Positions 12,301 to 53,600 of a stretch of 64,000 nucleotides of DNA are shown here, piece after piece. A program made the position numbers and the translations under genes. Below the pieces are notes generated by a model. That model was not told where the DNA came from. It worked only from the letters and a program-made list of their open reading frames with translations, and made no database searches. This DNA is from Tomocerus qinae. Taxonomy: Eukaryota; Arthropoda; Collembola; Entomobryomorpha; Tomoceridae. Location: positions 120,702,375 through 120,766,374 of the forward strand of contig CM034546.1 of NCBI GenBank assembly GCA_020055645.1, given 5' to 3'. How positions within the stretch are numbered: position 1 is the stretch's first letter; each line of letters opens with the position of its first letter.

Positions 12301-15300
12301 GTTGGTACAGGAGGATAAAATGGAAAAAAAGATATCTACGTAAATAGATGCATGTAAATGTCATGTAGATTTCTGCCAATATTTTATTTGGCTTAGTTAT
12401 GCATGGATGTTATATAACGCAAGAATAGCCATGCACAGCAGAGAGTGTAGGATAAAGATTTTATGTGTATAGTGGTTGCTATTTGATGAGTTAGTTAAAG
12501 ATGTTGAATGTGGATGGGTTGTCTGAGAGTATTAAAAGACAACTGAACTGCAACGATTGACGTCAATGCTGTATTTTTCTTGCATGAAAGAAAAAAGTTC
12601 AAAGCGAAGTTGTTTTTCCCATGATAATTCTAAAATCTAATGGTCAGCTCTACACACTCACCACATACATGCATAGCTCTAGCTCCTCACCACCTTTACA
12701 TGTAGCCCATTCCATTACAAGAGCTCAACTTGCATCCAAAAGAAATTTAGGCAGAACATGTTCCATTTGTTTTATGTAGCTTAGACCATTACTACTTATA
12801 AAAGATGCCTAGCAAAAAATCAAACCGGTTTCCATCGTATAAATGCTTTTCTGTGGAAAAAAATTTCAGTTTGACTTCAAGAAACTATACGTTCATTTTG
12901 ATTTGAATAAAAAGAGGAGGCATGGCTATGACGATGGAAGAAAGACAATTTGACGGTCAGTGGTCATGATCAAGTATTACGTGGAAATGTGGTGTGCATA
13001 AAATATGCAATACTATTACGTGGATCAAGAATTAACACCATGTAGTACTCTCTAATCTATTCGAAGAAAAATGTAACGTGCTACAAGAACTTTCATAATT
13101 ACGAGCAGTAATATTCAAACCATCTTTTGTCCATATTCTATTACACTATGTACTGTATGCCAATACTTTTTGAACAAGGAAGGGACTAGGAATAGAATCC
13201 GATTAGATAATTTTATTGATGAGCAAAAAATTACATTTTAATTTATATTTTCCTTCTTTCTAACCCTTTACGTAAGTGATGGCAATGATATGAATCAAAA
13301 AAGTCTGCATACTACGTGCAGCAGGCATAAAGGTTTGTTTCTAAATGTGCGAAGCAACCATTTATAGCCATACACTGTATTCTGTACTAGTTAGTTGCAT
13401 AGTTGTAGTATGTACTAATTAAAACTACCATGTCTTGCAAGATTCTCATCCACTTATACATATACACATGGTAGATAATTAAATGATGAATAACAAAAAA
13501 TGGGTGCATGCTGTATGTAAAGAAACTCGTCTGTATCTATCCACATATAGAGCTGATTTATTATCGAGCTATTTAAAAGGTAGATATTTTCTAAGACTGT
13601 AATGACCACAATTTTGTAAATTGTTGTTGGATGTTCGATTGGTAATTATAAAGTCCGTAAAATCAATTTTTTTTCGTGATTGTAAACCTTTTTTGATTTG
13701 CAGGCCCGGTCTCGACAACCCCAGGTGTTCCTTCAAATGAATCCGAGATGCAACTGTACCGAGTTTTACAAAGAGCGAATCTTCTACGCTATTTTGATGT
13801 AATGATCGAATTAGGAGGAGATGATGTGCAACAATTGTGCGAAGCAGGTGAAGAAGAATTCCTTGAGATAATGGCACTAATCGGCATGGCTTCGAAACCC
13901 TTGCACGTTCGACGACTTCAGAAGGCTTTGCAAGAAGTGATTCAAGAAGCTGCTGCTCGACCAAGTAATTCAATTTTTAAATGTTTGCGTTTTTAAGGTT
14001 GTGATGAGTGTCTAATAATAATGTTTGTATCTACAGATCTATATCAAGCAATGTCTTATTATCAATCAACAATGCCTTTCAACAAAGCTGTAATGCCATC
14101 AACCGCTCATCCATATACTCCTGAAGTCACAGAATCTCAAGCTCAATTAAGCAAATACATGCTCAACCAAAATCCAACTAAGTCTTTACCTCAGCCGCAA
14201 AACAAAATCCCAATCAGACCGATAGCTTATCATTCCGGGGCTTCCTCTTCAGTGCCAACAACCAAGCCTCCTTACGTTGATCCCATCGAGTTTAAAAACC
14301 TTCAGTCGAAACTCCACTATTTGCGTCCTTCGGACAACCACAGTTATCACAGTAGCAGCAATAGCAATAGTCCTACAAATAATATTCCACCAATTCAGAG
14401 CAGTGCTCATTTGAATATTCCAAATGCCTCTACTGGCGCTTCCAAAAGTCCAAATCATATAAGCACCTCAAGTAGTAGTAGTAGTCACAGTCAGTCTTCA
14501 GGGAGTTTTCAAATCCCAAGCATTACCATTCAAAGAGCATTTTACGACGAGCAAGACAAAGATCCAGAATCCATGAGAATTTCTGTAGACCAAGTTATTC
14601 CAAGTCATTTTCTAGAACAACGAATTCGGACGAGGAGTGAGCCGAATTCTCCTTCTCCTTCTGTATCTCCTCGACCTGCTGTATCACCCATTCCTTTTCT
14701 CCAGGATGTTGAAGTACAAAAACTGTCTGAAGCTGCCATTAAACTAATACAAACTCTACCACCTGCTGTCTCTGAACCTAGAATGTCTGCCAGAAAGAAA
14801 TCATGTGAAGATTTTGAAGCTGTCGTCAGAGTTCCAGAAAAGGATCCTAAGCGAATGGAAGAAATTCGAAAATATGCCGCCGTTTATGGCCGCTATGACT
14901 GCAAGAGAAAATTGTCAAAGCCTTTGACACTAAACGAGCTTTCTGTTAATGAGGCCGCGGCTCAGCTTTGTAAACACATTCCCGCTCTTCTCACACGCCG
15001 TGACGAATTATTTCCACTGGCAAGACAAGTAGTTCGTGACTCGGGACTTCCTTACTGCACTCCTAGTGGTGCTAATTTAAGTATCTCACTAATCCCAACC
15101 ACCAACACTAATAACAACTTAAATTCCAAAGCTCTAGTTCCAGAAGATAATAGTCATTCTGGATATAATGGCTACCACAGCAAAAGACTTCGACTTGATG
15201 TCCGAGGAATTGAAATTCATGTATGTAAGAACCATTAAACATGATTTACAGTTATCGATTTCCAATTTACAACATTTGACATCATTTTTTATTTGTAACT

Positions 15301-16236: not shown

Positions 16237-19200
16237 TTAATTTGAAAGCTTAAGATTCATGCTGTCAAATTGAAACACAAGGGGACACTTTCGCAAGAAC
16301 ATTTGATCACTCGATCTTATCCATTTGTTTGCAACTGGAAAGAGAATTAAGAAATAATGATGATTATAATTTATACAAATTGATATTAAGCGTTTATCTC
16401 TATGTTATAATCGTAGACTTGATTAAAGTAAATTTTGTTACCTATGTTATGTAATATATGTATCTATGTCTGGAAGAGAGAGCCGAAACGCAATTATAAT
16501 ATTATGCACTATTTCCAGCAATCTCGACTAAACTATAGGTAGTATCAGTATTCTTTTAAATGAAGACCATTTGAAGATCGAAATGTAACAAATCTGGCAC
16601 CATAAATACGAATTAGGCTTAGTTGGGCTATTTGTCCAAGTTCGTCTAAAATGGTCTAAGTTTATCTAAGTTGGTCTAGGTTCGTCTAAATTAGTCAAAA
16701 TTGATCTAAGTTCGTCTAAATTGGCCTTGGTTCGTCTAAATTAGTCTAAGTTCGTCTAAATTCGTCTAAGCTAGTCTAACGTGCGCTACATGGGTTTAAA
16801 ATATATAAATAGGCATATTGTGTATTTGGTGCAATTGTATCATGTACGTTCATGAATTATTGCATATCATAATATAAATGAACAAAAGTATAAAACTACT
16901 GTTTAGACCAATAATTACGACATTTTCTACTAAAATTCATTTTGGTGTGAGACAAAGTAGGACTTATAGTAAAATGTACTATAAATGTGTTTAGCCTTAC
17001 AAGAATGTGATAAATAGGCTTTAATGATAATAACTTACTCCATTTTTGTCCATACAATACTGGACAGCCACCATGCAACATTTTATTATTGATACTTCCA
17101 TCAGAATGTACATTGTACCAAAATACGGCAGAACCTTTAACCGGTTTAACAGCAATTTTCAATTTAGGGAAAACAGTATAGCCTCCTGCTTCTACATTTG
17201 ACAGCTGGCATAACATAAAATACATTTCAAAATGTAAAAAAATGCACATGAAGAAAGAAATTGTGTATTTATCAATAGCTGTGTTTACGTAAAACATAAA
17301 TGTTGATATTCGATCTCCCCGATTAATTTCTGCTTGGTTAATATAAGGCATAACCTTTGAATAGACAAAATTGAAAATTAAAACGTTTTATATTTATATG
17401 GGTATAGAAGCTATGAAATGTAACATGAAATTGTACTCAACCTCTGGGTCAAAAATTGCATCCAGATGAGCAACGTAGTGGCTTCCTGGTGGGTAATTAG
17501 CGATTTGAAGATTTTCGGTTGTCTCATACTTTCTTAAGTCAAAATTGACAATTCTACCAACCCTTTTGTATAGATATTGAAACTTTGTTACATTCCAATC
17601 CTGGATCCACGAATTGGATGAAGTTCGATAGGGACTTGTTTCTCCATTTGAGTTTCCATTCAAAGCTATAGTTCTAGATCTTCTCATCTCATATTTTACT
17701 TCATATTTCAAATCTCTCATTTCTACCTCGCTTAGTACATCATAAATTTGCACTACCAATGGATCCTCATGATGGACTTCTACTTTTAATGGAGAAATTA
17801 TCCAGCAAGGATGCGTTTTTGTTTCCAAGTAGCACTGTAACTTGTTCGTCTTACTTTCATTCTTCTATAAAACATCAAAGAGTTGTTCAAACAATTAGAA
17901 ACAAAAACAAAACCATACAAAATCCCAAAATCTAGATTTTACCGGAAATTTTTCTTCTCTGCACAATTTCTGAAATTTTGATATCAATGCAATCGGAATT
18001 TCTTCAGCTTCCATCTTAGGATCAAGCATTACAGACATTCTGTTACGGAAGTTGGATGAATTCCTCTCATCCAAATATCCGTGAAAAATGAATGGAAGGG
18101 AATCTTGCATATAATCTTTTTCTTCCAACCCAGTACGTAATTTATGATCGTGCTGTCGATTTTCAAACATGTAAAAGAATCCAGAAATATACCAAAATTT
18201 ATATGATGTATTAAAGCTAAATAATTCCGGTGATCAAGATCTCAGCCTAATGTATACATAATTTATACTTTAAGTACTAAATTTAAATTTATACTTTACT
18301 TCTTTTATCATTTGCGTCAATTTGTTTTCAATATCTTCAATTTCCAAAGCTGAGAATGGAAAATCTATATCTAATTCCATTTCCAGTGCTTTGTTCAAAA
18401 AATCTATAGCCTGAGAATACCAAGAATTGTTATAAGCATGCAAACCAATCTCATAACATTGTCGTGCTGTTAGACCACTGTTTGTATTCAAATGGCCAAT
18501 TTTTCCAATTGCGATCTGTAGAGAAAATAAAAGGATTTTGACAGAATAATAATTTTTGACAAATATTACCAAGTCTAAAAAATCATAAATTCTGTAGTAT
18601 ATACATCATCTATATGCAAATTGTATATTTGTTTCAATCTTATAATAGCTTGAATCGCAGTTTCAAAATCTTCATACACCGGGTATGGAATTTCATTAGT
18701 TAACTCTGTTAACTGTTTCTCTGTAAACATCCAAACTTATATAGTTACAAACTTGCTTACTAAAATGCACTTTTGCAGTATAAAACACTAGAAAATGTAA
18801 TTTATGGTTAATTGTGCTATGAAATTGTACTTAGGTCATCTTTCGGTGAAATTGTATTTAATTCTTCATGAATTTCCGGGAGATAAAGTACAATTCTTCG
18901 GATGCAGCGGAAAGTCATTAAAGCATGATTTACTACTTCCTCTGCTAAAATGTCTCCGTCCATTAAAGATACCCTTTCAAAAGTAATCAGACTTCTTTCA
19001 GCCCCAATTCCTTGTAGTAGACTTGAAGTAAAATCTGAAATGTAACTGGGGTTGATAGAAATAGATTTAGTGTTCGTTTTCATAATATTTAATGAATTAG
19101 TATGAATTTCATTATCACCTTGTAACTGTTTCCAATTTCCTTCTGCTTTTTCCCGCAAAAGTGGTCAGTACTTTAATAATTTTATACTCATGCTTTATCA

Positions 19201-20475: not shown

Positions 20476-22208
20476 ATTTGGGTATGTACTTTAATTTTCT
20501 ATGAATGTAAGCCAGATTAGATCCAATCTCTAGTTATACCAATACATGAGAAATTTAACTTATTTAAAAAGCAGAGCACAAAAGCAGCACACGGATGGGG
20601 GCTGTATTAATTGATAATGTTTACCAACCACTTTGAAAATTTGGCTTCAACATACATGCAACCAAATAGTAAACAATTCCCTTTTGTGTTGTCATTGTAC
20701 ATACAACTAGATATGCTGGCTACATCTCTAACAACCGTCAAAAGTATTCCTGCAAAGATAATGCAAAAAAAGTTAAATACACCTTATGGTAACTGTGCAT
20801 TATACCTAGGCATTATACTTACATTTTCCAAGCTAATTACAGCATGCGGCTGCAGTCTATTAAAACTTGTTCCCAATACGTTTAGTTAAGGGATGTGTGT
20901 AATATGAGAAATTCGAACAATGGAAATATTTAAAGTAGATTTTACCAACATCCTCATTCACCTATGGAGAACTTACCTACTCTGTGGTAATAAGTATTTG
21001 CGCATTAATAGCAATTTATGTAGTAATTTACTCTCCAAAAATATATATTCACGTACAGTAGTATATATTTCCTATGTGTGTGATTCAACACAACATCGTA
21101 ATTTCCTTTCGTATAAAACGTCATCGGTAATCACAAATCACACTACGCAATCATAAGAATCACAAATCACTAATTAATCCCTTCATTGAGTTAAATACGT
21201 AATAGGTGTAAAATCCCAGTTTAGACAGTATTTTTATTTCAACATAAAAATGTGGTGGTTCCTTCCTCTTAACGATAATAATTGCTATTTGATCCGGACT
21301 TGCGCCATTATAGTTGCACAATTAGTGACTTTGACAATTTCAATTAATTAGACTTGTGGTCGAATGAGGTTTAATAATTACTATTCTTAGATTCATACTA
21401 TATAGTATAATAGCGAAGGGTTAGGCAAGCATTAAGCAAAAACAAATAACATAGCTTATTAACTGACGTCTTAAATGCAAAAATGAGAGATGGGGAAATT
21501 AGAGTTTCAAAAGTGTTATCCAGCTTTAATTTTTAGCTTCATGTTGATAGAGTATCTCTATGTACATACCGTATATCACAGTAAAGATATCTAGGTTATT
21601 TTTTATATTCACATACAAATACTTAGTCATTTATCTACTAATTTAGCTATTCACAAATCAATGTAGCTAATTTACATTAGATGTACTACTATTTGACAAG
21701 CAGAACTACTTGTAATGGAACTAATAATCGTCAGGTAGGAACTGATTAAAAATCCAATTCTGACTGGTTACGTTTATCACGATTAAATTACAGACATAGG
21801 TATTTCATATAACAAAAGGTAACTAAAGCATTAATATTTTCCTGTATTTTTCATGTTGACAATAGCATCTTCGCAGAAATATCCGTAATCTATATCTTGT
21901 GGTATTATATCTGTTATTTAGTAATGACTGTCTAATTACATTGGTTGATATCGGTGGTAAAGAAAGTGACTAAAATACTTTGAAAGGAAAACATAAACTG
22001 TCTTTTCTGTTTTAGAGCCCTGTTTAAAAGAGCATCGAAATGTGGTTACAATTGAAAATGTAGCACGATTCAATAGTATCAAATAATCAATCGTCCTCTT
22101 GACCTTATATACTCCCATTTGAAAGTAAACGGAACATTACTAAAATAACGATTACGATGAATACGAAAATAACAGGAACAGAATCATAATAACAAAACAT
22201 AATAAAAA
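20476..22208. other. Intergenic, downstream of the GTPase gene
   Basis: No coding exon or RNA gene recognised. It presumably contains the 3' untranslated region of the GTPase gene at its right end. A TTTATT (AATAAA on the minus strand) occurs about 1 kb from the GTPase stop, but I could not assign a polyadenylation site with confidence. Confidence 0.5.
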
Positions 22209-23253
22209 TTAAGAAACCACACAAGAATTCCGGCGATGAAACTTCCACTTCATGGCTACTCTTACAGCCTCTTCAAATATGACATCTAGGTTATTGCGGT
22301 TTCTGACAGAACATTCGAAAAAGGCTGCAGCTCTTATCTGCATCTTGAGGTTTTCTCCTTCCTTATATTTGACAGGGTCAGGCACTTTGGGCTTTAGGTC
22401 TCTTTTCATACCTTTTCATATCATAAAACAAATTATTAGCACATAAACGAATAATCACTCAAATAGCTATATCAAAGGAATTATTACCAATTAAAACTAT
22501 TGGAGCTGAGACACAATACTTTCTTACTTCAGGTACCCACTTCTTAAAAACATTTTCAAATGACTCCCTATCATCGACGGCATAACAGATTAGAAACACG
22601 TCAGTCTGAAAAATTAAAATATCACCATCAGTATATAGCAGTACAACTTACCATAAAATATGCACAGACAAATATTACCATGAAAAAATATCTTTTAAAT
22701 ATTCAATGCACTACCTACACAGTAAATAGTGCATTACTAGTACTTAGTAGATCATGTAACGATGTAAATGCATAGAGAAATTATGAAAATAATCTACAGC
22801 ACGTGCCTACAATAATAATTTTACTTTCGAATAACTTACTTTAGGGTAAGCAAGAGCCCTGACTCTTTTTCTTTCATGAGCTCCAGCTAAATCCCAAATA
22901 GTCATGTCATATTCATGTCCATCCACATTAATCTGCTTTGAATGACTGTCAAATCTGGAAAAGTTAAAGAAAATTAATAAATGTGTTTTAATTACTTTAA
23001 AGAAAAGTTTATGCAATTAAAACGGGAGAATTTGATTAAATTTGAGATAAATTGCTTACAGAGTCGGTTCAATAATATCCGGGAATTTGCTGGCCATAAA
23101 CCAAGACAAGAAGAATGTCTTTCCGACATTTGCGTCTCCAACGACCACAACTTTTAAATACGGATCAAATTCTTTCATACTGAGACTGCTAGTCGAAAAA
23201 CGTTGCAGATGGAGAGATGAAGAAGACTGAGCTGGTTGCATCACTTCTTGCAT
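22209..23253 (-). CDS. Atypical Rho-family-like small GTPase, four exons, CAAX end
   Basis: Exons are 23253-23060, 22954-22840, 22605-22488 and 22411-22209; 630 nt, 209 residues, all phases consistent. Small GTPases of this kind switch between GTP and GDP forms at membranes to control actin, polarity or traffic. Seen: a 30-residue Ser-rich N-terminus; P-loop GDANVGKT (39-46); switch I EPTLFDS with Thr64; switch II WDLAGAHERKRVRALAYPK; the Rho-like TDVFLICYAVDDRESFENVF and KKWVPEVRKY; a G4 motif MKRD (144-147); a G5 motif ECSVR; and a basic tail ending CVVS, a prenylation motif. Relative to Rac/Rho, the Gly12 position is Ala41, the Gln61 position is Ala90, the G4 Thr/Asn is Met144, and the Rho insert helix is about 12 residues short. 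Slow or absent GTP hydrolysis, as in Rnd proteins, is inferred. Family certain; subfamily unknown. Confidence 0.88.
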
Positions 23254-23352
23254 TGTCTTGAATTTCCTTCAGCTCTCACAGAATGTATAGCAACTGTCTA
23301 GATAAATTTTTTTTGTGATGGAATAGATTTTGTTGTTGAGGTAAATTTAATG
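23254..23352 (-). other. GTPase 5' untranslated segment of first coding exon
   Basis: On the minus strand, a pyrimidine-rich tract ending TTCTTCTTCCAG (AG at 23354-23353) is a strong acceptor. The exon would start at 23352 and run into the ATG at 23253. No in-frame ATG upstream of it was noticed. Confidence 0.55.
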
Positions 23353-23426
23353 CTGGAAGAAGAAAATAATATGTTTAATAGATATATTGTGAAGTAAGTT
23401 TGGGTAATAAAAGTAATATTATATAC

Positions 23427-23490
23427 CTGAGCACGAATCAACAAGCTGGACGACCCTGGAGAGAGAAGTCAGTTCGAGTTGATTCTATTA
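23427..23490 (-). other. Probable GTPase 5' non-coding exon
   Basis: A donor GTATAT (23426-23421, minus) follows a CTCAG exon end at 23427. With the acceptor at 23353 it would define a 74-nt intron (23426-23353), similar to the 72-85 nt introns elsewhere in the window. The upstream boundary (transcription start) is a guess. Confidence 0.4.
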
Positions 23491-23499
23491 TAGTATGGT

Positions 23500-26400
23500 C
23501 GTGGGAACTGTGAGAATTACTAACAATACCAATACTTGAACTTGGTTTTTTAATGTCTTGTGTACTATCGTAATACAAGTTAATAGAATAAATGCAATGT
23601 AACGTAATGTATAATTTTTGTTATTTCTTATTCTGTTGGGTAGAACATGTAAAGAATGAATAATTTCATGTAAGTATGTATTAGTAGTGTTCTTCTATTC
23701 ACAACTAAACCACGAATAAGCATCTTATTGTATTCAACGACTAGAAAATAATTGTATCTATGTGTCTTTCTTAAGTACCTATCTCTTTACATACAAAATA
23801 GATTATAATAATGCCAATGCATTTATAATTGAGTTGCCCATTGTTAATACAGCATTCAAGTGAATTCAAGTTAGAAATAGATTACGACCAACACTTCCTT
23901 TTGTTTCTGGGGTAGAAATTGTGGCTCATCTTCCGGCTTATCTAGTGGATAAGATATTAATGTCGTTAAAAGCAGTTTGAATAGGTTCATTCCAAGCCTA
24001 ACGAAGTTCTGCCTTAGATTATTATGCTTTCAGCCACTAGAAACCAAGGTAATTTTGCGGCTTAGGAGATTGTGATAGGCAATGCTTTACTTTTACACTA
24101 ACTAACTACATAACTATTTGTACTCCTATGTCAGAGCCCTATATTTGTAATACCTTCTATACACCTAACCTGTACACGTAATTATACTTATATGAATTAT
24201 CATATTTACTTGCAATACAAAACATGATAAACGAAATTAGCTCTTATATTGTTGTTATTCTCTCATTATGCTATTACTAGATCCACGTTAAATGGTTATT
24301 CCCCTCGGTGACTTCATTACTTCATGTTAGTAAGGCAGGTCTGACTAATAAAGCAAATGAGACATCGATACCAAACGATCGTGCTTTCGCACACGTATCG
24401 GCTCTATTAGTACTTTTTATTCAATTCATAAATGTATTTCTGATTTAGAGCACAATACAAATGCAGCTTGACGTATTCTTGTAAACTACACTTCTAGTAC
24501 GTATAAATAAGTCAGTACTCTGATTTGGCTCTCTTGCCTGTGAAATCCCTTCATTTTTATTTATTGGCACAGTTCCTATTTATTGGGAGAGGAAGGAAGT
24601 AATTCTGTAATCTAAGAAATTATAATTACATATAAAAGCAAAACCTATAGGTATTCTTATAATACGTCATCATACATACATGAATGTCTGCTACCAATTG
24701 TTCAGTAGTTCACTGTAAGGTATTGTTAAAACCTTACATATTTAGTCACCTTTTCTCAACTCTGCTTTCAGCTTAAAAAGTATAATTCATTTTGTTATGA
24801 TTCTACTTGTACGATAAGGTCTCTAATTATGTCACATCCGTACTTCTAAATTCAACTTGCAGAATGACAGAATTGACATGACAGATATGTCATGACAGAA
24901 CGGAATGTGTCAGGTATAGGATTTTAATCATAGACTAAACTCATAGCCGGCAGTCAAAATTTCATACATCATTTGCATTTATAACCAGAAAAATCATTCT
25001 CAATAGCTTCCTAATCTATTTTTGTGAGTAACCCATTCATTTATGGTCACATCTTTATGAAAAAAGAAAAGATGCATTGCGTAAGTGTATAATAAACACT
25101 TTTGCAATTTTCATATAAATACAATATGAATCATAAAATGTACTTCAAACGCTGCATAAAAATTTCAAACCTTGAATTATTTTATCTACAATTATTAAAA
25201 TTAAATAGATCTCTTAGCTCCCTTATGCCGGATTAAAGTAAAACAGACTAAATCTTTCATATAATTTGTACATATAAATAGAAGTTCTTATAATTGGGAA
25301 TTGGAGCCACGATTAAACATCATCTATTTATAGATAGAGGATATAAACGGAGCTCTTATAAAATAATGTTAAATTAGTCTAAAATCACATTGCGTAATTT
25401 ATTATTTCAAAATTTCAGACTAGGTTTACAAGAAATAATGCTAATTTAGTTGAAGCCCCTGAGAGGGACTTTTGATTATACCTTTCTATTGATAACTCAG
25501 TATTAGCTTTTTTATAAAAAATAAATATACATGCTAATATCATTACTTACATTTATATTTACCTATAACATGTATATACTTAGCCCACCATGTAAAATGT
25601 AATGGTCCTTCTGCGATGCATTTGGTCTCACGTTAGTCTTACATAAACACAGTAAAGAACATCGTGTTGAAAATTAGGAAACTCAACAAAATTCGAATTC
25701 ACTGACAGTGTACTTTAATTATCTTTTGTCTTGTCTTATTAGTTAAATTATTTCATTCACATCATCTACAATTTAGCCAAGGCCATCTCAATATATGTCG
25801 TCAGTAGGTATTCGCAACAAAACAGTTATTTATCATAAATCATAAGTTCTCCTGTACAGTCTAAAAAAGAGTGCCGAGTGGAATCGTTTACTTTTACAAC
25901 TCATTGGGATACTCGAATGAAAAAACCAAAAAGCGAGTTTCCCGTATATAACTATGTTTGATGAAAAGACAGAAATGTGTTATTATTTGTTCCGTGGCAT
26001 TTGCAAAAACTTTATTGAGATGAGGGGTTGGTAGATTTGCTCATTGGTTAATGTCTATACTAGGCCATTCTAATGAAACTTCTTGGCTAATGTCCGAATC
26101 CAATTACTTTGTCAAAAATAAGTATGTCAACTTCCAATACACCATATATAGCTATTGGACTTAGATTATATAACTAGTACACTGTAGACCTAGATACGAC
26201 ATACGGTCACATGATTAAACTTTGTTTACATTTGGAATTTGGGTAAACTGAGGCAAATACAAAAATGCCGCTTGCCTAATACAATATGACAATCTCAATA
26301 TTCTCAATGTTGTCAAAAAAATCAATAGAGCTTTTAAATGTCCCGCTTTTTACCCAATTCACTCTTAAGTCTGTCCTTCGCAGGTCATAAAAACGCAATA

Positions 26401-50600: not shown

Positions 50601-53600
50601 TAATAAATCCCACTGTGAGGACTGACACTGTACTTACCTTCTAAGTAATCAATCCCAAAAACAGGTAAAACGTTATTCTGTAACAGTAATAAAACCTTTA
50701 TTGGTCTACGCTTGCACTCTGGTAGATTTTGTGCACTGACACACATGTCACCCATTTATTGCGTCTGCTATAATAAGATTGTACTTATTTCTATTACCCT
50801 GCGTAAGCATTTGCATAAATCGCTTTTGCTCGTCTAGCCTCATCCATTTTGAATTTTCATTAGTGTCTCGCACTTTTCTTTGTTCCATTTATTATTAGGG
50901 AGATTTCGAGGATGAGATATCCATGGACAATAGAACTGATTGAAATGCATAGAATCGTTAGATAAATAGTAATTGTGAAAATACGACAGGAAGAGGATCT
51001 ATTTAGGGACAGAAATAGAAATAGCTGTATGTGGTCGGAACATTTACTGTTACTAGAAGTTCATTTACATTTATAATGGTGTCTTCGTAATGATGAAACA
51101 TCATTCCGGGCGGTTCAAACCAGATTTTTCTGGATCTCTATGTATTTATGCGTTGTAATAATGGGCTATTTAAACCAAAACTGGTTTCATCAACTTTCTC
51201 TTTCTAAGTAATCCACTAAAACTATGTACCATGTACTTACTCTGTAGGCTAAAACACTCTAACATTGATGATAATTACGACATTAAGGGATCTGGTGTGC
51301 CGCAGCGTTACTGTAAACGGAGATGTTATTACACACGTAAATGGTGTGTGTATCTAAGTGTCCTTTCCTAGTAGATTTCCTTCCTGTGCTTTCGTTACTC
51401 AAATCTTCTCTCGAAAATGCTTAATAATCCAATAAATAATCTTCCATGGGTTATAATAAGAAAAGGGAAGAGAATACACTCTCTCTAATAGATTATCAAA
51501 TGTTGGTTAGGTTATATTTGCCTTGAGTTCCGACTATGAATTCTGTTATTACTTTATCCTCGCAAAATTTCATCCTGAAGTCTAAATAAATAAAATCATA
51601 AAAAAATAAGTTGTGTATCTAAATAGGGAAATGATTGGACAGAGATTGTATAATAGTTTGAGTGTAATTTGGGGTTCTCTTGTACTTTACAGGTAGTTCC
51701 AGTCAACATCATTCCCAAACGTTACCTCAAAAAACATTCTGTCGGTTCCGGAACAAAGAATATTCCCCAGGCGATATGTGGTACCCATCGTCATCCGCAT
51801 CTCTTGGATCTAACTGCGTCATTTGCACTTGTCTTATGGTAACATTCGTAACATCCATTTAATTCAAGTTTTATTGCTAATGCTATATTTAGTTCAGTCA
51901 TTCGTCAACCAATGGTGCAAGGGACAAATAAATGCATGTGCATCAATCCCATTATGTTTTATTTCAACGAGCATATAGCGAGTAGTAAAGCTGTCAACAT
52001 CTCTCAAAACTAATGCCTATTCACTTACTATATATCAGAGTGGGAGACAAAATTGCACGAAGCAGGAATGCCCCACGGACTGCCATTTAGATCGCTCAAC
52101 CCCACAACATCCTTGCTGCAAAGTCTGCGAAGAGAGTAGGAAATTTCAGACACATTTTTCTTATTTTTATTTTGTATTCTTGTCAATTAATATGATTTAA
52201 TTATTAGGAGAATCAGACTCTGCTCAAAGTGCTAGCCAAAACCAAGGAGGCAGTGGAGGAAACTTACCATTCGGAGGTGTCGTTTCTGATAGGGACTCTG
52301 GAGAAGAAGAAGATGATGACACGGAAATTGGGGCTGATATTTCTGAGTTCGTCTCCTGTCTACATCAAGGGAAAATCTACAAAGATGGGGAATCCTTTAC
52401 TGCTAATATGTCTGGCCTGCCAATTTCTGTGCAAGATCAATGCATGCAGTGCATTTGCCAGGTATCTTAAGCCTAAATATATGTAGTAATAATTGTAATA
52501 CCGGAGACACTCAAGACTAAATTTTTCACATCATCATGCCCCATTGTCTATTTAGAGTGGAATGGTACTCTGTCAGAGTACACCTTGTTCCGATCTCAAA
52601 TGCACCAGCTCTGGATTCTCTCTCACCTCCACTTCAATATCCAACTCTGGTGACACTTGCTGCCAACGCTGTATAGGTAAGCTCAATTTAATCTTGTTCT
52701 AACTGAGAAATTTTGCGACGACACATCTACAAGCATCGTAAGATAATATTTATGGATAGTTTTGGTTAATTCAGTTACGACACCGAAATAGACAAATAAT
52801 TACATCTTCAACATTTTCACACAGTACAATGATACAAATATTATTTGAAATCGCTATACTTTTTAGAATTTGCCACATTGCCACTCAAAATGGTACTTAT
52901 CTAAAAATTGAAGTATCTATTTTTAGCATGCCAGAATATTTTTATAGGAAGTAGATATAGAGATTTTTTGTAGTAAGAATTTTCATAAAGACCAAAAACG
53001 ACGGTAACTGCCAATTAGTCCATATCAGGAATTGACATGAATGTATGCTACAAAACTTTCGCAGTAAAGTTATTTTTGTCCACTAAATCGTAGCAATTAT
53101 ATTAGGATTAGGGAATGATGGCATTTTAAAAATGATAGTAAGAGTTACTGAACCAAAGACTCTTTACAAAAGTTTATCATAGACTAGTAAAAGGGAAAAT
53201 ACTATACTGTCATCCAAGTCCTAAGTATTCAGTGACAGTATACATTTGATACAGTTTCAGTATAACTCAAAAGGTTTTCTTGCAAAGTTGCAAATTACTG
53301 TCCTCCTAGCTAGGTTACAGTAAATATTGTTAGAATTATCAAAGACCTTTCTACAAAACCCAAGAAAAGATTAAGTGAGGTTGTTAAGTATACAACTTGC
53401 GTGTCTGGGTGCGTGTGATTAAGTTTGTATTGAAGAGACTTGATTATTTATACTATTTCGTTCCCAATCCGAGAATACAGCGTTACAGTAGGTAGTTACA
53501 GTGTTTTTGGTACACATTAATGAGTAATACCTATCATTTTCTACTTAAGAAACTTCTCTGATTGGTTCTGTTCCACGTAAATGGATTTAAAGTTGACTAA

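Follow-up and report, generated by a model that had tools for sequence, protein, structure and literature searches.

The 64,000-nucleotide stretch of Tomocerus qinae DNA analyzed here (the window, C1:120702375-120766374) contains a gene for a small GTPase in which the residues equivalent to Gly12 and Gln61 of Ras are both Ala. Judged by comparison with other GTPases, the gene is most likely a fast-evolved member of the Rho family that descends from RhoL. Its product is best read, with about even confidence, as a RhoL-type protein that would bind GTP, resist RhoGAPs, and be controlled by its level. Among the papers listed in a literature search, neither this gene nor an Ala/Ala form derived from RhoL was met, judging by titles and abstract openings.

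Gene structure and splicing

The gene lies on the minus strand at 23253..22209 of the window, where four coding exons are joined into a coding sequence of 630 nt, i.e., 209 amino acids and a stop codon. The spliced gene for a Rho-like protein that an earlier note had proposed at this place could thus be reconstructed. Coding exon 1 (23060..23253) encodes an N-terminal extension, the P-loop GDANVGKT, and switch I up to EPTL, with Thr35 kept. Coding exon 2 (22840..22954) runs from FDSH through the G3 motif DLAGAHE and switch II to AYPK, and coding exon 3 (22488..22605) covers the Rho-like core from TDVFLICY via KKWVPEVRKY to VLI(G). Coding exon 4 (22209..22411) specifies the G4 motif MKRD, a shortened insert segment, the G5 motif ECSVRN, a basic tail, and the CAAX-type end CVVS, followed by the stop codon. 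All three introns, also on the minus strand, are of the GT..AG type: intron 1 (22955..23059; 105 nt) reads GTAAGC..TTCCAG, intron 2 (22606..22839; 234 nt) GTAAGT..TTTCAG, and intron 3 (22412..22487; 76 nt) GTAATA..GAAAAG. They are located after EPTL, after AYPK, and inside LIG, respectively, and no match to these positions was found among the introns readable by eye in the Rho1, Rac, Mtl, and Cdc42 genes and the Rho-type loci L031-L035 of the same genome (see below). The GC content at the first, second, and third codon positions is 0.49, 0.35, and 0.37, respectively, vs. 0.255 in the introns. The N terminus has three candidate starts, M1, M5, or M26, and the sequence alone suggests a possible 5' UTR with one further GT..AG intron at 23254..23500 on the minus strand.

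The acceptor of intron 3, directly 5' of the codons for MKRD, is weak and has a poor pyrimidine tract. Among 16 AGs checked around it, seven are in frame, and the G4 motif survives only with the one at 22412. Since the other six delete the motif, the presence of G4 hinges on the choice of splice site.

No near-identical DNA for positions 20500-25500 of the window was found in plasmids by megablast, and no Rfam family reached the gathering score within the window. A Nab-type corepressor gene is present at 13697-15238 on the plus strand (SAM_NCD1, 1.9e-40; NCD2, 2.6e-44). Exons at 16896-19164 on the minus strand resemble those of the prolyl 4-hydroxylase alpha subunit, with a sub-threshold Pfam match to 2OG-FeII_Oxy_3 (5e-5), and an exon at 52201-52470 on the plus strand shows a weak VWC match (0.0039), which is below the cut-off.

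Assignment to the Rho family

Residues 34-195 of the protein match the Pfam Ras family above the cut-off (5.9e-40, 136.9 bits), and NCBIfam reported only the small_GTP domain. In a search of PDB sequences, RhoA was the best match (1.4e-40), with Rac1 soon after, and the best 60 of the 818 sequences under 0.001 were all RhoA/B/C or Rac1. In BLAST comparisons with 19 rows, the top score was obtained with Drosophila RhoL (155 bits, 42% identity); the rows for Drosophila RhoL and for RhoH are provisional sequences. Scores were 150 bits (38% identity) for Rho1b and 149 bits for Rho1 of the same genome, 144 for RHOA, 141 for RAC1 (41%), 116 for RND3 (34%), and 113 for RHOH (33%), and the lowest Rho row was L034 of the same genome with 103 bits. 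The 17 Rho rows thus scored 103-155 bits vs. 74 and 66 bits for a Rab and a Ras protein of the same genome, and the Rho branch was supported at 99/98 in the tree. These results bear out the Rho-like core recognized in the earlier note. An origin from Rab or Ras was dropped on the basis of the scores and the Rho branch, although the AU test alone did not reject it (p 0.10 for Ras and 0.07 for Rab).

Relatives in prokaryotes or viruses were sought as well: there were two pattern matches in viral contigs and nine in genome contigs, none of which was confirmed by tblastn. Similarly, none of 14 pattern matches to the provisional RhoL sequence in viral contigs was confirmed.

Rho proteins typically carry an insert of some 10-15 residues in the segment from G4 to G5, which is reduced here. 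This segment comprises 26 residues in the query vs. 36 in Rho1, Rac1, Cdc42, Rnd3, RhoU, and RhoD; elsewhere, it comprises 31 residues in L032 and 23-24 in Ras and Rab proteins of the same genome. The shortening reported earlier is therefore real, but it amounts to 10 rather than about 12 residues. Because the insert is not of the usual length, assignment to the Rho family depends on the core, and the protein is more modestly described as Rho-type with a reduced insert. Miro also lacks the insert, and there are studies that have set it apart for that reason.

Residue changes in the nucleotide-binding pocket

Alignment of GDANVGKT on GDGACGKT/GDGAVGKT and of DLAGAHE on DTAGQED places Ala41 at Ras position 12 (codon 23133..23131 on the minus strand, in coding exon 1) and Ala90 at position 61 (codon 22881..22879 on the minus strand, in coding exon 2), just as the earlier note had read them. 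The residues it gave for G4 and G5 are likewise correct. In G4, which reads GMKRD, M144 occupies the N/T position (Ras 116), and K145 and D147 are retained. In G5, CSVRN, the Ala at Ras position 146 is replaced by V178, which aligns with RAC1 residue 159, and an Arg is found at Ras position 147. Neither MKRD nor SVR occurs in the other 19 rows of the alignment. Further changes are Y32 to I61, Y40 to H69, and T58 to L87. The residues K16, T17, F28, T35, D57, A59, G60, K117, D119, and S145 are unchanged. A working pocket is defined by residues that contact the phosphates, Mg, and the base, and most of these are in place (GKT, T35, DxAG, K117, D119, F28, and S145). The C terminus, CVVS, is preceded by basic residues and would be a substrate for prenylation, so the CAAX box noted earlier is also present.

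It is barely conceivable that the unusual codons result from errors in sequencing or assembly. The reading does rest on the assembly, but unusual residues are found in all four exons, in frame, and the remaining frame is intact.

A more serious alternative, though an unlikely one, is that the protein is a pseudo-GTPase or a fast exchanger with little or no affinity for nucleotide, which would serve as a scaffold or sequester effectors or GEFs. The changes at M116, V146, R147, and L58 would be disruptive, and the uniqueness of MKRD and SVR among the alignment rows fits this idea. Also, the use of an intron 3 acceptor further downstream would abolish G4. RAC1 A159V and RHOA A161V appear among tumor mutations, and RAC1 A159V is treated alongside the fast-cycling P29S (PMC9029563). 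The loss of the residue at N116 together with A146V could lower nucleotide binding as such, which counts against the preferred reading of a GTP-bound protein. However, GK[T], T35, DxxG, K117, and D119, the hallmarks of GTP and Mg binding, are all kept in the gene model used, and Rnd3, which equally lacks the G4 N/T (CKSD), is nevertheless described as GTP-loaded (PMC13236570).

Kinship with RhoL

In a maximum-likelihood tree of 20 rows and 193 columns, the query grouped inside the Rho branch with the provisional RhoL sequence (support 95/88). The pair was also obtained when the long rows or the outgroups were left out (96/89 and 97/92, respectively), and, with six rows omitted, it was found on one side of a branch supported at 94/92. 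The two halves of the alignment recovered it separately (87/79 and 87/82). When a random 20% of the RhoL row was masked, the pair was present in the best tree in three out of three cases, but support fell to 69/19, 40/0, and 89/77. Overall, all nine trees that contained RhoL had the pair in the best tree, and removal of the RhoL row left the query unplaced within the Rho group. The branch leading to the query is very long (2.17 changes per column).

The query shares several features with RhoL. Its G4-G5 segment of 26 residues is close to the length in the provisional RhoL sequence, 27 residues (29 in the provisional RhoH sequence), and both proteins have a CAAX-type end. In switch I, both have a His at Ras position 40 (FDSH in the query and, presumably, FDNH in RhoL), a residue also found in L032 and L033 of the same genome, and a similar stretch, RNxNLxxVFEEAVR, is present in both. 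The short insert therefore looks like a RhoL-type trait rather than a separate oddity. Unlike the query, RhoL presumably is a normal switch, with GDG, DTAGQED, GTKLD, and CSA.

Ten alternative placements of the query were evaluated by AU tests. Placement with Rnd3 (p 0.017), RhoH (p 0.012), Cdc42 (p 0.0018), or Rac (p 0.038) was rejected, whereas placement with L034 (p 0.21), Rho1 (p 0.069), L032 (p 0.068), or L033 (p 0.057), in addition to Ras and Rab (see above), was not. Descent from Rnd is rejected by this test, and so, with the provisional RhoH row, is descent from RhoH. The place in the Rho family that was claimed earlier is upheld by the tree.

A parent other than RhoL is rather unlikely. 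Rho1 or the L032/L033 group, which has FDxH in switch I, could have given rise to the gene if the attraction to RhoL is artefactual, as might be created by the small number of rows and a single provisional RhoL sequence. The four Rho placements left standing by the AU test are compatible with this, and L032 also has FDNH and a G4-G5 segment five residues shorter than that of Rho1. Then again, RhoL scored best and paired with the query in every tree in which it was included, and the length of the insert, the His in switch I, and the RNxNLxxVFEEAVR stretch all match it. Because the RhoL row is provisional, descent from RhoL is the best-supported origin but is not proven. This alternative concerns descent and is compatible with each of the functional readings.

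Small GTPases of the same genome

The genome (334,443,149 bases in 115 contigs) was searched, with 150 of 199 candidates scored and 145 places listed; about 31 clusters, some at 60-76 bits, lay outside the reading. In the loci read, tblastn searches with the query and visual inspection gave at least 12 copies of the Rho type: the query itself, two Rho1 genes (L003 and L011), a Rac (L041), two Cdc42 copies (L052), an Mtl (L056), and L031-L035. An ordinary RhoL was not seen among these loci. Two of the 12 copies differ at both positions 12 and 61: the query, with two Ala residues, and L034, with two Ser residues. In L033, position 12 is Ser but Gln61 is retained. The other nine have Gln61, and Gly12 wherever the relevant exon was covered (for Rac, the reading did not include the first exon).

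L034, also recorded as L012 (C4:14112000-14118500), resembles the query in having both positions changed in a Rho-type core (GDSGVGKT, DTAGSE), and its nearest PDB matches are RHO1 and RhoA. It differs by its Ser residues, a normal G4 motif (NKTD), a full-length insert, and a single open exon, and its frame as read has no CAAX-type end. In the best tree, it is on another branch than the query. A separate origin of its altered state would fit this tree, and a common origin would also be compatible with the AU result given above.

Several other loci were observed. L031 and L032 (C1:36.47 and 36.70 Mb) are a divergent Rho-like pair in which switch I reads PTVFDNH and the insert is shortened. The frame of L031 is interrupted by a stop at the Trp that precedes DTAGQ, and this copy appears pseudogene-like. 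L033 (C4:14471000-14477000) is Rho-like, with the P-loop GDSYSGKS, PTVFDTH, and a normal DTAGQE. L003 (C2:38.29 Mb) and L011 (C3:39.88 Mb) are nearly identical Rho1 genes, and the coding region of L003 has no introns, so that it may be an intact retrocopy. L052 (C4:24220000-24229500) contains two adjoining Cdc42 genes or copies on one strand. L035 (C2:50492000-50497500), with GDGGCGKT and EPTVFENY, is somewhat RhoD/F-like by eye, although RhoDF is missing for D. melanogaster from Table 1 of PMC7600811 (see below), and it takes no firm place in the tree. L004 and L005 (C2:43.42 Mb) are neighboring Ras-type genes, one with DTAGT and the other with DTAGA, the latter combining Ala61 with Gly12.

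Changes at single positions are common in the superfamily. Of 38 P-loop strings from the fetched loci, 20 lack Gly12, and 17 of these belong to genes outside the Rho group, where the replacing residue is mostly Ser but also Gln, Thr, Pro, Leu, Arg, and, once, Ala. Among 42 G3 strings, 14 lack Gln61, three of which are exon ends, and L017, L022, and L024, all outside the Rho group, miss both residues. As the strings were drawn with a permissive pattern that overlooks part of the genes, these counts are a caution rather than a frequency. The claim that hydrolysis-critical positions are changed stands for the pair of replacements in a Rho-type core, but a single replacement carries little weight across the superfamily, and the argument for GTPase deficiency needs both the RhoGAP mechanism and the Rho-type core.

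The frequent differences at 12 or 61 in small GTPases outside the Rho group weigh against the preferred reading of a GAP-resistant protein, and they agree with the notion that the protein still cycles because another residue or a dedicated GAP substitutes for Gln61, as in other small GTPases, in which case the two alanines would not keep it switched on. In Rap, for instance, catalysis involves a different residue. Still, the core is of the Rho type, Rho GAPs use Gln61 together with an arginine finger, and no evident replacement residue is present beside A90, which is followed by H91 and E92. A cycling protein is therefore considered quite unlikely.

Decay or function

The earlier note argued that the gene is not a pseudogene. 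Neutral drift was simulated in 300 runs starting from a single gene, an intact Rho1 copy of the same genome, under one simple substitution model. The frame remained open in 19 of 300 runs at 80% protein identity, in one at 60%, and in none at 42%, where 7.5 stops had accumulated on average. The open frame of the query thus argues against long drift, and an old pseudogene is rejected by this result at the divergence of the query. A recent loss of constraint is possible. That the gene is a former RhoL or Rho copy in decay, with relaxed constraint and stops not yet gained, is very unlikely on balance. The long branch, the weak acceptor of intron 3, the coincidence of several G-box changes, and the visibly broken related locus L031/L018 would fit decay, but 209 open codons, three in-frame introns, retained Mg and phosphate ligands, the CAAX-type end, and the outcome of the simulation speak against it.

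Predicted mode of action

By analogy with known GTPase-deficient proteins, a constitutively GTP-bound state of the protein, as the earlier note suggested, is plausible. GTP loading would be aided by a weaker binding of the base, due to Met at position 116 and Val at position 146, which would speed up exchange. Intrinsic hydrolysis of GTP would be poor and, for want of Gln61 and owing to the side chain that position 12 adds to the P-loop, the arginine finger of a RhoGAP would be unable to complete the active site. Prenylation of CVVS would attach the protein to the membrane, and its output would then be set by transcription, turnover, or competition for effectors rather than by a cycle of GEFs and GAPs. 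In fly, RhoL is described as required, with Rap1, for transepithelial migration of hemocytes (PMC4194352). As RhoL is the fly Rho protein for transmigration of immune cells in that report, a locked form would be directly testable in this pathway.

Comparison with known GTPase-deficient Rho proteins

Loss of Gly12 and changes at positions 12, 59, and 61 go with GTPase deficiency in RND, RHOH, and RHOBTB, which are described as escaping from GAPs, GEFs, and GDIs (PMC13236570; PMC9029563). Rnd1, Rnd2, and Rnd3 are reported there as GTPase-deficient and GTP-loaded (PMC13236570; PMC9029563). Like the query, Rnd3 in its PDB sequence (GDSQCGKT, DTSGSP, GCKSD) lacks Gly12, Gln61, and the G4 N/T, but it is only 34% identical to the query and has a full 36-residue insert, and Ala59 is kept in the query. 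For RHOE, position 61 is given as Asp in PMC9029563, vs. Ser in PDB 1m7b (DTSGSP).

RhoBTB is classed as GTPase-deficient (PMC9029563), with a C in G4 and S(V/I/S)(F/V/Y/L) in G5 (PMC7600811). The SV of G5 thus occurs there as in the query. However, RhoBTB carries BTB domains and lacks a CAAX box, whereas the query ends after the G domain with CVVS. The trees contained no RhoBTB row. RhoH is described as GTPase-deficient as well (PMC13236570).

For D. melanogaster, Table 1 of PMC7600811 has no entry under Rnd, RhoDF, RhoUV, or RhoH. Since Rnd and RhoH, the GTPase-deficient Rho proteins that end in a CAAX box, are both missing from that table, a RhoL-derived protein of this type would represent an independent origin of a switch that is controlled by its amount. 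Tentatively, an insect-type lineage that lacked Rnd and RhoH may have evolved a permanently GTP-bound, membrane-anchored switch from RhoL by joining a hydrolysis block at positions 12 and 61 to a change at position 146 that promotes exchange, with L034 having become GTPase-deficient separately; this scenario is possible but doubtful.

Rnd had been put forward in the earlier note as a natural example of such a protein. As a functional analogy this stands, but a sister relation to Rnd3 is rejected, and the likeness to Rnd3 and RhoH would be convergent because neither pairing is accepted. RhoH, with Ser at position 12 and Asn at position 61, resembles the query in that both positions are changed and the G4-G5 segment is shortened, but the two are only 33% identical. 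Functionally, the protein would be a convergent counterpart of Rnd and RhoH on a RhoL-like frame. Its kind is already known, since Rnd3 in the PDB and, presumably, RhoH also lack both residues. With positions 12, 61, and 146 altered together by nature, the protein offers a ready comparison for mutants of the type found in tumors.
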